NCBI GenBank assembly: GCA_003513855.1
Contig: DOTC01000004.1
Location: 377 to 26,778 of the forward strand
DNA from: Deltaproteobacteria bacterium
GTDB lineage: Bacteria; Desulfobacterota; Deferrimicrobia; Deferrimicrobiales; Deferrimicrobiaceae
Direction of reading: 5' to 3'
DNA length: 26,402 bases
Shown: piece by piece, positions 18,215 to 26,402 of the stretch
How the letters are laid out: each line of letters begins with the position of its first letter
How positions within the stretch are numbered: the stretch's first letter is position 1
Position numbers and translations under genes: made by a program
Notes under the pieces: generated by a model
Databases searched by the model: none
The model's input: only the letters and a program-made list of their open reading frames with translations
Told to the model about the DNA's origin: nothing

Positions 18215-18934
18215 ATGATGTTGCTATCTGTTGAACATATAAACGTATATTACGACAACATTCGGGCTTTGCACGACGTCTCCTTCACCGTGGGAAAAGG
18301 GGAGATCGTTTCGTTGATCGGAGCGAACGGGGCTGGGAAGAGCACCATTCTGAAAGCGGTGTCCGGGATCCTGAAGCCCCGGTCCGGAAGGATCCTCCTC
18401 GCGGGCAAGGACTTGGTCGGGGTCCCCCAGCACAGAATCGCCAGGATGGGCGTATCCCTCGTACCGGAAGGGCGGGGAATCTTCGCGAATATGACCGTTC
18501 GGGATAACCTGGAGATGGGCGCGTTCACCCGGAACGTCCGGGAGGAGATCGAGAAAAGTGTCGCGGAAGTGTTCGCCCTCTTCCCCCAGCTGAGGGAGAG
18601 GGCTTCCCAGTCGGCGGGTACTCTCTCGGGCGGGGAGCAACAGATGCTCGCCATCGGGCGGGCGATGGTCGCCAAGCCTTCCGTCGTCCTGCTGGACGAA
18701 CCCTCGATGGGGCTTTCCCCCCTTCTGGTCCGTGATCTCTTTTTCCTCATCCGGGAAATCCATCAGGCCGGAACGACGATCCTCCTCGTCGAGCAGAACG
18801 CGTTCATGGCGCTCTCCGTCTCCCACAGGGCATACGTTCTGGAAACGGGCGCCATTGTCCTGTCGGGAAATGCATCCGATCTTCGCTCGGACCCGAAGGT
18901 CAGAGCCGCCTACCTTGGGGATGTGACAGGATAG
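18215..18934 (+). CDS. livF: Branched-chain amino acid ABC transporter ATP-binding protein LivF
   Basis: A 239-residue ATPase, partner of LivG. Walker A GANGAGKST (38-46), VPEGRGIFANMTVRDNLEMGA (the LivF-specific Q-loop region), signature LSGGEQQMLAIGRAM, Walker B VVLLDEPSMGLSP and VEQN switch are present. Two ATGs lie together (18215, 18218); AAGGAG at 18193-18198 is 16 bases away, longer than usual. The first 20 codons are AT-rich compared with the rest. The 3' end overlaps the convergent cheR-like gene by 25 bases, leaving no room for a terminator after livF. Confidence 0.94.
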   Translation: MMLLSVEHINVYYDNIRALHDVSFTVGKGEIVSLIGANGAGKSTILKAVSGILKPRSGRILLAGKDLVGVPQHRIARMGVSLVPEGRGIFANMTVRDNLEMGAFTRNVREEIEKSVAEVFALFPQLRERASQSAGTLSGGEQQMLAIGRAMVAKPSVVLLDEPSMGLSPLLVRDLFFLIREIHQAGTTILLVEQNAFMALSVSHRAYVLETGAIVLSGNASDLRSDPKVRAAYLGDVTG

Positions 18935-19731
18935 GGGTGGTCCGAAGGGCCCTGCCGCAGGTAGATGGCGCCGGGGGGACCGGCGGGAGTGAACCAGACC
19001 GATGTTCGAGGGGGGAGTTTTTCCGTCCTTCCGAGCACCAGCGCACCCCCGGGGGGAAGGGCCGATGCGATCGATTCGGCGATCTCCATCCGGCGCCGGG
19101 GAGCGAAATAGGTGAATGCCGCATTGCGGCAGAGGATGATGTCGAACGCGCCGGGAGGAGGCTCGAACAGGAGATCGTGTCTTTGAAACGTCACGGAACG
19201 GAGGACGTCCTCCCGCAGCCGGTATCTTCCCCCTTCCCGCCGGAAATACTTTTCGACGACCGGCCCCGGAACCTCGCGGAGACTGCTCTCGGAGTAGAGC
19301 CCTGCCGCGGCGCGCGCCAGGCACGCCTCGTCGACGTCCGTTGCCAGGATGGAAAGAAGGGGTCGCGGACCCGGAAGTTCCTCCCACAGGATCCGGAGGG
19401 TGAACGCCTCCTCCCCCGAAGCGCACCCTGCGCTCCAGGCGCTCGCCGGACTCCCTTTCGCCGCAAGGGGAGTAAGGATATGGCGTGCAAGGGTATCGAA
19501 CACCTTGCGGTTGCGAAAGAACCGCGAAATCGTCACTGTCAGGAGAGGCCGCAGGGCCTCCCGCTCCCCGGGGGTTCTCCGGAGCAGGACCAGATAAGCC
19601 TGGAAATCGTGAACTCCCAGCGATGCCATTCTCTGCATGACCCGCCGGCGGATGTTCCGCCTCCGCAACGCGGTCGGGGAGAGTCCGAGAGAGGGGAGGG
19701 CTTCGGCGAGGAATCGTTCGAAATCCGTCAC
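18910..19731 (-). CDS. CheR-type protein-glutamate methyltransferase
   Basis: A 273-residue SAM-dependent methyltransferase of the CheR family, which methylates glutamates on chemoreceptors. The N-terminal helical domain (1-75) ends TVTISRFFRNRKVF, the standard T-x-FFR-type element. The SAM domain has SAGCASGEEAFTL (100-112), LATDVDEACLARAAAGLY (129-146) and CRNAAFTYF (201-209) where CheR has CRNVLIYF. No receptor, CheA, CheB or CheY is nearby, so it is an orphan; such CheRs often belong to alternative signalling systems. The start is GTG 19731 without a good ribosome site. It follows the 122-residue gene by 41 bases on the same strand, and its end overlaps livF by 25 bases. Confidence 0.85.
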   Translation of the reverse strand: MTDFERFLAEALPSLGLSPTALRRRNIRRRVMQRMASLGVHDFQAYLVLLRRTPGEREALRPLLTVTISRFFRNRKVFDTLARHILTPLAAKGSPASAWSAGCASGEEAFTLRILWEELPGPRPLLSILATDVDEACLARAAAGLYSESSLREVPGPVVEKYFRREGGRYRLREDVLRSVTFQRHDLLFEPPPGAFDIILCRNAAFTYFAPRRRMEIAESIASALPPGGALVLGRTEKLPPRTSVWFTPAGPPGAIYLRQGPSDHPYPVTSPR

Positions 19732-19772: not shown

Positions 19773-20141
19773 TCAAGAAGGGATCCCCTCCTCAAGGGCG
19801 GGGGCGCCCGACGGGGATCGGATCGATTTCCGGTGACGCCTGACCGGCATGGATGTCGACGATCTTGTGAACGATGCCCTACCGCGGGCGGGGGGAAGTT
19901 TCCGAAGGAACGTGAGCGTCCGTTCGGGCACGGAAGACGGGTCGATGGAGGTGAGAAATTCGGGCGGCTGGCGCTTTCGGAGGATGGACACGATTTGCTT
20001 CATTGCGGATGGAGGCAGATCCGTCACCTTGCCCTCGGAGGCTCGCTCCATGATGAGAGAGGCGAACCGCCCGACCTCCTCGAACGAGATCGGACGGTCC
20101 CCCGGGGCTTTCTTGGTGATGGGTCCTGCCCCTTGGCTCAT
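19773..20141 (-). CDS. Small protein of unknown function, coupled to the reductase-hydratase fusion
   Basis: A 122-residue protein I do not recognise. Residues 17-85 look structured, with alternating helix-like stretches (ISFEEVGRFASLIMERASEG, then AMKQIVSILRKRQPPEFLTSI and RTLTFLRKL). The last 35 residues are Arg/Ser-rich and probably disordered. There is no signal peptide or membrane segment. The start is well supported: AAGGAG lies six bases before the ATG, and that site is inside the last codons of the upstream fusion gene, whose stop lies one base before this ATG. It is probably translated together with that enzyme. No cysteine or obvious catalytic motif is present. Confidence 0.6.
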   Translation of the reverse strand: MSQGAGPITKKAPGDRPISFEEVGRFASLIMERASEGKVTDLPPSAMKQIVSILRKRQPPEFLTSIDPSSVPERTLTFLRKLPPARGRASFTRSSTSMPVRRHRKSIRSPSGAPALEEGIPS

Positions 20142-20142
20142 A

Positions 20143-22902
20143 TCACTCCTTCTCGGCAGAGATCAGTTCCAGGAACGACGACTGCAGCGGGTCCTTCCCG
20201 AGAAAGCGGCCTACCCACTCCTGCCCTGCGGGGGAAGCCGTGATCTCCCCGAACGCCCGGGCGTCATTTCCCAGGCCGGAGAGAAACCCGCTTTCGTAGC
20301 CGTATTTCATGGCGAGGAGAGCCCCCTTCGCGGCGGCTCCCCGTGCGGCGCGGAGATCTTTCGCCTCCTCCGGGCCGGGAACGGGGGCCGCAAGGATCTC
20401 CCGGACATCCCTGCGTTCCAGAAAACGGCGAAGGGCTTCCTTCTGCTCCGACGCAATGGCGTCCCAGTCCTTCCGGGGGAAGGGCCTGTCTCCCGAGAGG
20501 AACGCACGCGCCCGCGTTACGGCCGCGGACAGGGCGGTCGCGGACGGGAGGAACTCGTCGGCCAGTCCCCACGCAACCGCCGTGTCCCCGTCCACCGGCT
20601 CGCCGTTGGCGCTCATCTCCGCCGCCCGGGCGGGTCCTACCAGGCGAGGGAGGCGCTGCATCCCCCCGTATCCGGGGATGATGCCGAGCTTGACCTCGGG
20701 TTGGCCCAGGCTTGCGTTCTCCGTCACGATCCGGTAATGGGCGCTCATCGCCAACTCGTTGCCGCCACCCAGGGCAAACCCGTCGACGACGGCGATCACG
20801 GGAAGGGGCAGGGCCTCGAGTTCCGTGAAGACGGAGATGTTTTTCGACGCAAGGGCGCGGATCATTCCGGCATCTTTCCCGTGGAACTCCTTCACGTCTG
20901 CACCCGCAACGAAGGCCCTTCCTGCGCCGGTCAGCACCAGTGCCCGAACGGCTTTCCCCCCGATCGTCCCGAGGGAGCCGGCCTCCCGAACCACCGAGGA
21001 AAGCTGGGAAAGCAGTTCCTCGTTGAGCGCGTTCAGCGCCTCCGGACGGGTGAGAGTTACGATTGCCACCTCGCCAAGGAGTCTCACGTCGAGGAACCGG
21101 TTCTCCTTCGGTTCCGCGACCATGATCCTCTCGCCGAGGAACACATCCTCGTATTCCCGGATCGAACGCCCGGCCCGGTCCGCCTGGACAAGCGCGACGC
21201 CTTTCGGTTTCCCCATGGTCCCGTCCAGCATTTTCTGGTGGACCCCGGGAAGTCCGTCCAGGGTGGTGATCTCCAGGTCCTCCTGCTCCATGACGATCTT
21301 CCCCTCGGCAAGGAGCCGGATGACTTCCCCCGCCTGGTCCGAGCGGTACATGTGGGATCCGAAAATGGACATGTTCGTCTTCCCGCGCAACACGATGAAC
21401 CCGCAGGGCATCGCGTTTTTCTCGTCGTAGTCGCGCAGGACGAAGGTGCTGTATTGGAGGGTGCTCTGGTCCGGGCGCTCCACGATAAAATCGGGGCTCT
21501 GGCGGGGGCCGAAAATACCCCAGTACGCCTTGCCGAGGGCCTGGGCGCTTCGCATGAACCCCGTAGTGTATTCGGGGTCCGGCTTTCCGTCGGGCGTAAG
21601 CGGGTCGGGCATGTCCGGCAGGAAGCGGATTCCGTCCCGGTCGATCACGCGGGAAGGGGGGATGCCCATCCGCCGGAGCGAGGCGATCCCCTTTTTTTCG
21701 GCGGAGCGGGAGGCCACGAAGGCGAGTTCCGCTCCGCGGGCAAGCGCCGCCCGGGCGAAGCTTCGGGAGTAGGCGTCAGCCCCCCAGATCAGGCCCTTGC
21801 GGCCGGGAAGGAGGCCGATTTCCGCGAAGATCGCATCGGGCGTGCCCTTCCGGAAGAGAACCTGCTTCTGCCGCATCCAGACCCACCGAGCGTCGAATAC
21901 GTACCTCCCTCCGTCGTAGAAGAAGGTTTCCTTGTATTCCCCCTTGAGACCTTTCCCCGTGGCGCCGAAGAATGCAAGCGAGCCGTTTTGGGACAGTGCG
22001 GAGACGAGCAGGGGGAAGTTGAGGGCGCCGGTATGCTCGAAGATCCTGTCCACCGGGCGGCCGTCGTTGGCGGCATATACGGCCTGCCGGAACGGCTCCG
22101 TCCGCGCGAACCACTCCTCGTACAGGGTTCCCGGCGGGATGAAGCCGAAGACCTCCGGAGGGATGGCGCGCCGATCGATGAACGCATCCGCGATGCCGCG
22201 CTCACGGAGCGATCGCGCAAGGTCGGGATTGGACCCCATCAGGATCACCCGGGCACCGAGCCGCTTGGCGATCTGCGCCCCCGCGAAGCTCGTACCCTTT
22301 CCGCCTCCCAGGAGAAGGACGGAATTCCCGGGGGAGACACCGAGTCTCTCGACGATGGCACGGTAGGCCGTTCCGTAGGTGAGAAGCATCGCCGCAAGCC
22401 TCTCCGGAGCATGCCCCCGCAACGGGGGTGGGACAGGGATCGCCCGTTCCTCGTCCACGATCGCGAACTGGGCGTTGAACCCGTCATGGGTCTCGTATCC
22501 GCGGATGTTGTGACCGGTCCAGGAATCGAGGATAACCGCCTGCCCCTCCCTGACGCGCGATACCGCACCGCCTGTGTCGACCACGATCCCCAGGGCGTCG
22601 CTTCCCGGGATGTGAACGGTTGCGGAGTCCCCTCTCCCGAAAACCGGGACCGGGAGGCCCATCGATGCGAAGATGGTGTTGAAGTTCGGTCCCGTGGCAA
22701 GGATCGCCACGAGAACGCGTTTCGCGTCCCGTCCGCGCAGGCGGGGAACCTGTACCTGCTCCCGTCGGAGAGATTCGGAGGGCAACCCGTACCGGTCCCG
22801 GTGGATCGTAAGCGCTTGCATCATTTCGGGGAGGGGGGTGCCAAGGGTCGGCGGACAGGAAAGAGGCCATGATCTGGCACGATCGTTCGGTTTCCCGGAC
22901 AT
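20143..22902 (-). CDS. Fusion of MDR-family enoyl-CoA reductase, second Rossmann domain and enoyl-CoA hydratase
   Basis: A 919-residue cytoplasmic multidomain protein. Residues 45-190 are a GroES-like catalytic domain resembling crotonyl-CoA carboxylase/reductase ([22 protein letters not shown]). Residues 191-360 are a nucleotide domain ([27 protein letters not shown] with His290). Residues 366-575 repeat that fold ([65 protein letters not shown]). Residues 605-800 are an enoyl-CoA hydratase with oxyanion-hole [11 protein letters not shown] and both catalytic glutamates (Glu716 in GGGNELAMS, Glu736 in [12 protein letters not shown]). A FadB-like helical tail ends the protein. It probably hydrates or dehydrates and reduces short-chain acyl-CoA intermediates with NADPH; the substrate is unknown. 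The start at 22902 follows GAGGAGGA; the frame is open upstream to 23094. Confidence 0.88.
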
Positions 22903-24390: not shown

Positions 24391-24450
24391 CGATCCGCTT
24401 TCCGCCCGGCCGATCACGTTTCCGCCCGGGTCATCGAATTTCCGGAAGGG
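24391..24450 (+). repeat. 20-base tandem repeat upstream of the acyl-CoA synthetase gene
   Basis: Three head-to-tail 20-base units: 24391-24410 and 24411-24430 share CGATC and TTTCCGCCCGG (16-17 of 20 identical); 24431-24450 keeps ATC and TTTCCG at the same offsets (about 12 of 20). The period is close to two helical turns, so repeated binding by one regulator is possible. It ends 29 bases before the ATG. Confidence 0.6.
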
Positions 24451-24479
24451 GAGAGGGCCATCGCGCAGAGGTGCCCCCC

Positions 24480-26402
24480 ATGTCCTCCACCCTCACGCCT
24501 CTTTTCCGACCCGGCCGCATCGCCGTCATCGGCGCTTCGGCCAATCCCGAAAAAATGGGGTTCCAGATCTTCCGGAACATTCTGGATGCCGGCTTTGCGG
24601 GGGAGATTATTCCCGTAAACCCGAAGGGGGAAATCATCTTGGGCCTTCCATCGGTCCGATCGGCCTCCGAAATCCCGGAGGGGACGGATCTTGCGGTCGT
24701 CATCATCCCGGCGAAGCTCGTACCCGCGACGATGCTCCAAATGGGGGAGAGGAAGGTGCGATCCGCGATCGTCATCACGGGAGGGTTCGCCGAGTCGGGG
24801 GAGGAAGGCGCTGCGCTGCAGGAGGAACTGGTCCGGAACGCCAGCCGGTACGGGATCCGAGTCATCGGGCCGAACTGCCAGGGAGTCAACGTTCCGTTTC
24901 ACGGGGTCTGCGCCTCCTGGCCGCTCATCACGCGGAGAGGCGAAATCGCGATCGTGTCCCAGAGCGGGACCGTCGGTGCAGCGCTGATCGACTGGGCCTC
25001 CGAAGATCGAATCGGCTTCTCCGCATTCGTGAGCATGGGCAACCGGGCCGACGTCGACGAGGCGGACCTGATCGCCTATTTCACGGACGACCCGAATGCA
25101 AAGGTCATCGCCCTGTATATCGAGGGGGTCAAGGACGCGGAGAAGTTCCTCTCGGCCGTCCGGAAGTGCCGCAAGCCCATCGTCATCTTCAAGGCGGGGC
25201 GGACGGAGCAGGGGAGGAAGGCGGCGGAATCCCACACCCGGTCCCTCGCGGGCAAGGACGAGATCTACGACGCCGTGTTCCGCCAGTTCGGCGTGCACCG
25301 CGCCTCCACCCTCGAGGAGCTGTACGACTTTTCCAAGGCGCTGGCCTACCTGCCGCCGGCGGCGGGTCCGAAAATGCTGATCGTCACGAGTTCGGGGGGG
25401 TCCGCCATCATCGCAACCGACGTGGCCGAGGAGGAGGGGTTCCGCGTGTCCCCCCTTCCCCGGGATCTTGCGGTCCGATTGCGTGAGATTCTCCCCCCCC
25501 ACTGCATCGTCGGAAACCCGCTCGACCTCACGGGGGACACCGATGCGGAGCGGTACCGGAAGGTCCTTGCCGCCGCGGACGGGTACTACGACGTGGTCAT
25601 GACGATCTTCGGCGACCCGATTCCGGGCGCTTCCGAAGTCATCCGTCCGGGGAAGTGCGATCTCGTCTGCTACCTCGGCGGGGCCGACGTCGAAAGGGAA
25701 GAGCGGGGGAAGATGCACGAAAAGAAGATCGCCGTCTTCCCGACGCCGGAACGGGCGGTCAACGCCCTGTCCTGCTACGCGCGTTTCGACAGGAATACCT
25801 TTCCGACGGATCGGGCCCTTGCCGTATCGACGGCAAAGTCGCCGGAGAGACTGCGGGCGATGACCCCCGCCGAATCGATGGCGTTTCTCGCCGGGAACGG
25901 GTTCCCCGTCACCCCTGCGCTTCCCGCGGGGAGCGAGCAGGAAGCGGTTGCGGCCGCACGACGCATCGGTTTCCCGGTCACCGTGAAGATGAACTCCCCG
26001 GACGTGACGCACAAGACCGACGTGGGCGGGGTGATCCTGGACGTGCCCGACGAGGAAAGGGTCAGGAAGGCGTACCGCCTCATCGCGGAGGCGGCCGGGA
26101 GGATCGGGGCGAGGGACGGCGGCGTGCTCGTCGCCGCGATGGCGGCCCCGGGGCAGGAGGTCATCGTCGGGGTCACGAAGGACCTTCAGTTCGGGCACGC
26201 GGTGATGTTCGGGCTCGGAGGGATCATGGTGGAGGTGATGAAGGACGTCTCGTTCCGGATCGTCCCTCTTTCGGGAAAAGACGCCGCGGAAATGACCTCG
26301 GAAATCCGGGGGGCGCGGGCCCTGGAGGGGATTCGGGGAAGAAAGCCCGCCGATGTGGCCGCCGTCCGCGATCTCCTCGTCCGGGTGTCGGACCTTGTTT
26401 CG
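24480..26402 (+). CDS. ADP-forming acetate/acyl-CoA synthetase (fused alpha-beta), 3'-truncated by the window
   Basis: At least 641 residues; no stop before the window ends. The CoA-binding domain (about 1-130) has IAVIGASANPEKMGF (14-28) and VIGPNCQGV. The succinyl-CoA-ligase-like domain (about 145-440) has IVSQSGTVGAAL and the phosphorylated His252 in ESHTRSLAG. The ATP-grasp domain starts near 460, with the second histidine of the phosphoryl relay in DVTHKTDVGG (His511) and FGLGGIMVEVMKD. The enzyme interconverts acyl-CoA, ADP and Pi with acid, CoA and ATP. HTGSLAG is HTRSLAG here, a minor variant. It could instead be a protein acetyltransferase of the Pat type if a GNAT domain follows outside the window. 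The ATG at 24480 is chosen; GTG 24471 is also in frame. Confidence 0.92.
   Translation, partial: MSSTLTPLFRPGRIAVIGASANPEKMGFQIFRNILDAGFAGEIIPVNPKGEIILGLPSVRSASEIPEGTDLAVVIIPAKLVPATMLQMGERKVRSAIVITGGFAESGEEGAALQEELVRNASRYGIRVIGPNCQGVNVPFHGVCASWPLITRRGEIAIVSQSGTVGAALIDWASEDRIGFSAFVSMGNRADVDEADLIAYFTDDPNAKVIALYIEGVKDAEKFLSAVRKCRKPIVIFKAGRTEQGRKAAESHTRSLAGKDEIYDAVFRQFGVHRASTLEELYDFSKALAYLPPAAGPKMLIVTSSGGSAIIATDVAEEEGFRVSPLPRDLAVRLREILPPHCIVGNPLDLTGDTDAERYRKVLAAADGYYDVVMTIFGDPIPGASEVIRPGKCDLVCYLGGADVEREERGKMHEKKIAVFPTPERAVNALSCYARFDRNTFPTDRALAVSTAKSPERLRAMTPAESMAFLAGNGFPVTPALPAGSEQEAVAAARRIGFPVTVKMNSPDVTHKTDVGGVILDVPDEERVRKAYRLIAEAAGRIGARDGGVLVAAMAAPGQEVIVGVTKDLQFGHAVMFGLGGIMVEVMKDVSFRIVPLSGKDAAEMTSEIRGARALEGIRGRKPADVAAVRDLLVRVSDLVS

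Follow-up and report, generated by a model that had tools for sequence, protein, structure and literature searches.

A fused enoyl-CoA reductase–hydratase in Deferrimicrobiaceae that resembles part of propionyl-CoA synthase with its domains reversed

The fusion gene and its domains

The stretch of DNA analyzed here (the window; 26,402 nucleotides of contig DOTC01000004.1 from a deltaproteobacterium of the Deferrimicrobiaceae) contains a minus-strand gene, running from position 22902 down to 20143, that codes for a 919-residue protein (P0001) followed by a stop codon, in which an enoyl-CoA reductase (ER) is fused to an enoyl-CoA hydratase (ECH). The plus strand across the same bases is likewise almost open, as is common in high-GC DNA. 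Pfam places reductase domains ahead of a hydratase domain: ADH_N at residues 61–158, the ADH_zinc_N Rossmann domain at 207–320 (slightly under its cut-off), and ECH_1 at 611–803 (E 5e-43). A protein search with ER-ECH matched 486 proteins; 119 of the 120 matches listed cover 93–100% of the query at 63–92% identity, the remaining one covers 82%, and two relatives among those listed, at 82–83% identity, carry the name Candidatus Deferrimicrobiaceae. The open reading frame (ORF), the Pfam domains, the homologues and both hydratase glutamates bear out the first-pass annotation, made by a model from the letters alone, in placing a complete hydratase and a reductase like crotonyl-CoA carboxylase/reductase (CCR) in one frame.

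Within the reductase, the GroES-like catalytic part (residues 1–185, 22348–22902, minus strand as for all of the parts given here; Pfam and alignments) is followed by two Rossmann modules, R1 (residues 186–351, 21850–22347), which has WVWMRQK at its end, and R2 (residues 352–512, 21367–21849), after which alignments show a return to the catalytic part at residues 513–590 (21133–21366). The ECH domain occupies residues 600–915 (20158–21105), and the NCBIfam model that it matches best is one for a generic enoyl-CoA hydratase. Residues E716 and E736, which we take to be its catalytic glutamate pair, are present in 163 of the 163 rows of an alignment of 121 proteins (P0001–P0121) and 42 of P0122–P0234 that are longer than 2,300 residues. 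ER and ECH fill the chain, and Pfam finds no AMP-forming acyl-CoA synthetase domain within the 919 residues. A FadB/FadJ-type fusion was considered and rejected, as Pfam shows no 3-hydroxyacyl-CoA dehydrogenase domain in ER-ECH.

A doubled Rossmann reductase

Both modules align with the Rossmann region of CCRs using hhalign: R1 with E-values of 2.5e-13 and 4.5e-13 against the Rhodococcus and Kitasatospora enzymes respectively, and R2 (taken as 352–518) with 2.8e-8 and 1.7e-6. Profile searches match both to the same region of AntE and 9kva too, and the proposal that two nucleotide-binding folds correspond to a single CCR region is thus confirmed. Compared head-on by profile, R1 and R2 show no significant match (E 0.29 and 0.37, with reversed controls of 0.14 and 0.23 being no worse), so that the duplication must be old; as judged from these profiles it shows itself solely through the common match to CCR. 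Strands and helices alternate in residues 369–515 of the AlphaFold2 model, in line with the earlier placing of a second Rossmann fold within residues 366–575, and pLDDT is 90–97 over the block from 351 to 430. No glycine-rich loop was seen in R2, and we infer that R1 binds NADPH and that R2 binds no cofactor. Residues 1–588 of the model superpose on the reductase of propionyl-CoA synthase (PCS; 6eqo), so the doubled Rossmann arrangement is itself already known.

The CO2 pocket and the question of carboxylation

A study of the Kitasatospora CCR (KsCCR) gives N81, F170, E171 and H365 as CO2-pocket residues (PMC10966969), in a numbering that differs by 2 from that of the PDB sequence. These align with N75, Y136, E137 and H517 of ER-ECH; tyrosine at the Y136 position is also found in 4gi2 and AntE, and each of the four is kept in 162 of the 163 aligned rows, the remaining row having a gap. 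A profile of the C-terminal 105 residues of ER did not find CCR, and the assignment of H517 thus rests on the other alignments. The first-pass annotation had put the CO2-anchoring glutamate at Gln145, the retained pocket histidine at His290, and had argued from Gln145 for simple reduction. Neither position is correct, because KsCCR also has Gln at the first, the true site being the conserved E137, and His290 sits in the FEHxG strand of the Rossmann fold, the true histidine being H517. With all four residues CCR-like that case against carboxylation falls, and the annotation stands in its architecture but not in its pocket residues or the argument drawn from them.

The match to the KsCCR pocket favors a reductive carboxylase, adding CO2 to acrylyl-CoA to form methylmalonyl-CoA, or to crotonyl-CoA to form ethylmalonyl-CoA. 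ER-ECH further resembles CCR at T76 and M343; the PCS of Erythrobacter has D1302 and T1753 at these two sites, which are reported to matter. However, the T1753 site is Met in a haloarchaeal PCS (see below) and therefore fails to separate PCS from CCR-like enzymes. Moreover, the pocket N, Y and E, the three residues compared there, are retained in Erythrobacter PCS and all four residues in the haloarchaeal one, and PCS is described as converting 3-hydroxypropionate to propionyl-CoA, with promiscuous carboxylation (PMC10176493). The pocket residues therefore settle neither reduction nor carboxylation. A propionyl-CoA-carboxylase-type module that co-occurs with ER-ECH (see below) would make a carboxylating ER less needed; we consider this alternative improbable, and ER would be expected to carry out plain reduction.

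A deletion scar downstream of ER-ECH

Directly after the ER-ECH stop are remnants of a partner gene that is intact in relatives. The first (19899–20147, minus strand), of approximately 83 codons and mostly inside ORF 19773–20141, corresponds to the partner start, to which it aligns at 87 positions with 54% identity (E 1e-19). The second, 29 bases past it and in a different frame (19795–19869, minus strand), corresponds to the last 25 partner codons (52%, E 0.006); when the C-terminal 39 residues were used in a shuffle test the score was 84, the best of 2000 shuffles scored 55, and 0 of 2000 reached it. An internal deletion has thus removed some 1,560 partner codons. The locus L001, whose ER-ECH is 96% identical, retains the partner tail (E 5e-4) and, by eye, a few codons of its start. 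No intact partner was found elsewhere in the window's genome (75% complete) or in the genome of L001. ER-ECH itself is under purifying selection, with a dN/dS of 0.155 relative to L001. A putative CheR-type methyltransferase gene (18910–19731, minus strand) lies directly past the scar, and the same cluster follows in L001.

The partner resembles malonyl-CoA reductase

In relatives, a protein of approximately 1,670 residues with four C-terminal short-chain dehydrogenase/reductase (SDR) domains either continues the ER-ECH chain as a fusion or is encoded directly after it. The four are in tandem in a model of the partner (mdfd0d0b9131a), for which Foldseek ranks 1–25 are all malonyl-CoA reductase (MCR), SDR1–SDR2 being barely tested by VIA. 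The MCR-N residues T165, Y172, R175, Y178 and K182 are present in 106 of 113 partner homologues; the seven without them are 1,123–2,130 residues long and at least some are marked partial. SDR3–SDR4 are nearer to MCR-N (hhalign 5e-23, versus 7e-17 for MCR-C), and SDR1–SDR2 are equally near to both.

The strict MCR-C pattern (S731, Y743, R746, Y749, K753) is found in none of the 113 homologues; a regular-expression search shows Y..R..Y retained in 99, with Ser replaced by Thr and Lys753 by Gln. Because it fails at Lys753, a defining MCR residue, we class the partner as working like MCR rather than as a member, and ER-ECH is likewise classed as PCS-like, not as PCS. The region corresponding to R799 and the extra domain of MCR is short, with low pLDDT. 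The first SDR of the homologues has YxxxQ with Lys at +7, not YxxxK; this spacing is known from enoyl-ACP reductases and is unusual for an MCR-like enzyme. A region of approximately 540 residues between ECH and the SDRs (L009:2538–4169, plus strand) matches nothing in Pfam and, by sequence, nothing convincingly in the PDB; what survives in the window is the start of this region, which lies ahead of the SDRs.

The partner also bears on whether ER-ECH is instead a C4 enzyme, converting 3-hydroxybutyryl-CoA via crotonyl-CoA to butyryl-CoA in butyrate, polyhydroxybutyrate or reverse beta-oxidation metabolism. The ER core is nearest to crotonyl-CoA carboxylase/reductases, with 174.3 bits to TIGR01751, and the generic NCBIfam assignment of ECH would suit such a role. 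However, the curated TIGR01751 cut-off of 378.55 is not reached, R2 is common to ER-ECH and PCS, and ER-ECH is coupled to an MCR-like half having malonate-semialdehyde residues; we regard a C4 function as unlikely.

Distribution and phylogeny

Of 24 species in the window's family, 16 have ER-ECH and 12 have the partner (E up to 1e-100); in 10 of the 16, ER-ECH is fused to the partner or shares an operon with it. The window's own genus has ER-ECH in four of five species and the partner in none of the five, and one further species (G191) has ER-ECH without the partner. Six of 148 genomes drawn from the phylum encode ER-ECH, and stand-alone genes without the MCR half occur in several phyla. In a tree of 31 rows (L030 was omitted as incomplete) partner-less rows lie close to fused forms in two places, one with the window, L001 and L002, and the other with L003; stand-alone L013, L020 and L031 group with fused L005, L006 and L010 with moderate support, and the deep forks are weak. 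The L009 record is titled Actinomycetota, its ER-ECH groups with Deferrimicrobiaceae-like L004, and it is perhaps a mislabelled bin.

The stand-alone genes, together with putative branched-chain amino acid ABC transporter genes near ER-ECH in the window (by reading), would fit a general enoyl-CoA reductase/hydratase of another pathway, such as detoxification of acrylyl-CoA from acrylate or beta-alanine, or metabolism of branched-chain CoA esters, with the MCR fusion a local recruitment. Conservation of the pocket residues throughout the 163 rows and the frequency of fusions and operons in the family argue against this, and we give it very little credence.

Neighboring genes and metabolic setting

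Divergent from ER-ECH is an annotated ADP-forming acyl-CoA ligase gene (24414–26402, plus strand) that runs off the contig; by clustering, a ligase of this type is in the same position in six of 32 loci, the window included. Family models leave its substrate undefined, and it is a possible supplier of the CoA ester. A carboxylase and methylmalonyl-CoA mutase set is present in 16 of 16 ER-ECH genomes of the family versus four of eight without ER-ECH (p 0.007 uncorrected for relatedness; genomes 61–100% complete), the four including G192 and G058, which have a weaker-scoring carboxylase beside the mutase; in G180 the two are not adjacent. In L055, the one stretch of five that was annotated, the set comprises a carboxyltransferase, biotin carboxylase, mutase and BirA. 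Propionyl-CoA carboxylase is a reading of this set, since the carboxyltransferase matches a methylmalonyl-CoA decarboxylase model but scores below the threshold set for that model. At stand-alone loci the seven annotated neighbors (among them CorA, DUF1501, DUF1549/1553, GatZ, a deacetylase and a formate transporter) include none that is telling. Cytochrome bd oxidase genes follow ER-ECH or the partner in L003 (Pfam) and in L004, L009 and L028 (clustering).

Two haloarchaeal plasmids carry related enzymes. On that of Natribaculum luteum (L052:5271–10706, plus strand) synthetase, ECH and ER parts are in one protein, annotated merely as an AMP-binding protein, that adjoins acyl-CoA carboxylase and methylmalonyl-CoA mutase genes and that we read as a PCS. 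The Haladaptatus plasmid (L053) has an ADP-forming-type CoA ligase, two ECH, a stand-alone doubled-Rossmann ER and a BCCT transporter, and is an unfused version of the same enzyme set.

A proposed role in 3-hydroxypropionate metabolism

From its architecture and kinship we infer the substrates, direction, cofactor, channelling and product of ER-ECH: the ECH domain would remove water from 3-hydroxypropionyl-CoA, giving acrylyl-CoA, which the ER domain would reduce with NADPH to propionyl-CoA, the toxic intermediate probably being kept from release between the two. A separate ligase, possibly the adjacent ADP-forming one, would have to supply the CoA ester. In the ancestor, ER-ECH would have been coupled, as an operon or a single polypeptide, to the MCR-like four-SDR enzyme, which would convert malonyl-CoA via malonate semialdehyde to 3-hydroxypropionate; the fusion makes malonyl-CoA the likely ancestral source. 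The window's genus would have deleted the MCR-like half and retained ER-ECH, presumably drawing 3-hydroxypropionate from another source. We lean somewhat towards this overall reading, in which ER-ECH carries out the dehydration and the reduction known from PCS with the domains reversed and was ancestrally coupled to malonyl-CoA reduction.

More tentatively, and with rather less than even confidence, the relatives of approximately 2,500–2,700 residues may be single-chain multienzymes leading from malonyl-CoA to propionyl-CoA and lacking only the CoA ligase, which would give a 3-hydroxypropionate route to a lineage reported to lack the key enzymes, a route now being dismantled in the window's genus. 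The fusion suggests an unrecognized version of part of the Chloroflexus carbon-assimilation route, which if true would mean that uncultured Deferrimicrobiaceae-like bacteria carry signature 3-hydroxypropionate-route reactions in a form that is new and highly fused. In the parts considered, a genome study did not identify key enzymes of the pathway in the lineage (PMC9386147) and a survey of carbon fixation does not mention the lineage for it (PMC9802188). Such proteins could have escaped notice because of their altered domain order, and they could be overlooked when PCS or MCR is sought through domain order or similarity over the whole protein.

Comparison with known systems

Among the homologues searched there is no characterized protein with the ER-ECH order, and a literature search of limited scope found nothing on this order or on an MCR-ER-ECH fusion. 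CCRs (4gi2, AntE and KsCCR, 6na3/6owe) share the catalytic core and CO2-pocket residues of ER-ECH, but have a single Rossmann fold and no hydratase, and ER-ECH misses the CCR equivalog cut-off. The haloarchaeal ER of L053 (WP_276248821.1; 632 residues) has the doubled Rossmann fold and adjoins ADP-forming-type ligase and ECH genes, but is unfused and has Gln at the E137 position.

PCS produces propionyl-CoA in a closed compartment. In the enzymes of Erythrobacter sp. NAP1 (6eqo) and Chloroflexus, ECH and a doubled-Rossmann ER share one polypeptide as they do here; the ER superposes over its full length, and the pocket N, Y and E are common to both, as is H in the haloarchaeal PCS. PCS has, however, an AMP-forming acyl-CoA synthetase (ACS) domain that ER-ECH lacks, and its WMRQK element is in R2, not R1. 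The order in PCS is ACS-ECH-ER, whereas here ER (1–590) precedes ECH (600–915), so that PCS does, as first noted, combine the same enzymes in another order; with this reversal, nature provides a way to ask if domain order is essential to the reaction chamber of PCS. The partner half shares with MCR (8hjw, 8hi4) its four SDRs, best fold match and MCR-N active-site residues, but the pair nearest MCR-N is apparently last rather than first, the first SDR has YxxxQ, and there is the additional N-terminal region. The giant relatives would unite the jobs that MCR and PCS do in Chloroflexus, with a reversed order in the half that resembles PCS and, apparently, also in the one that resembles MCR.
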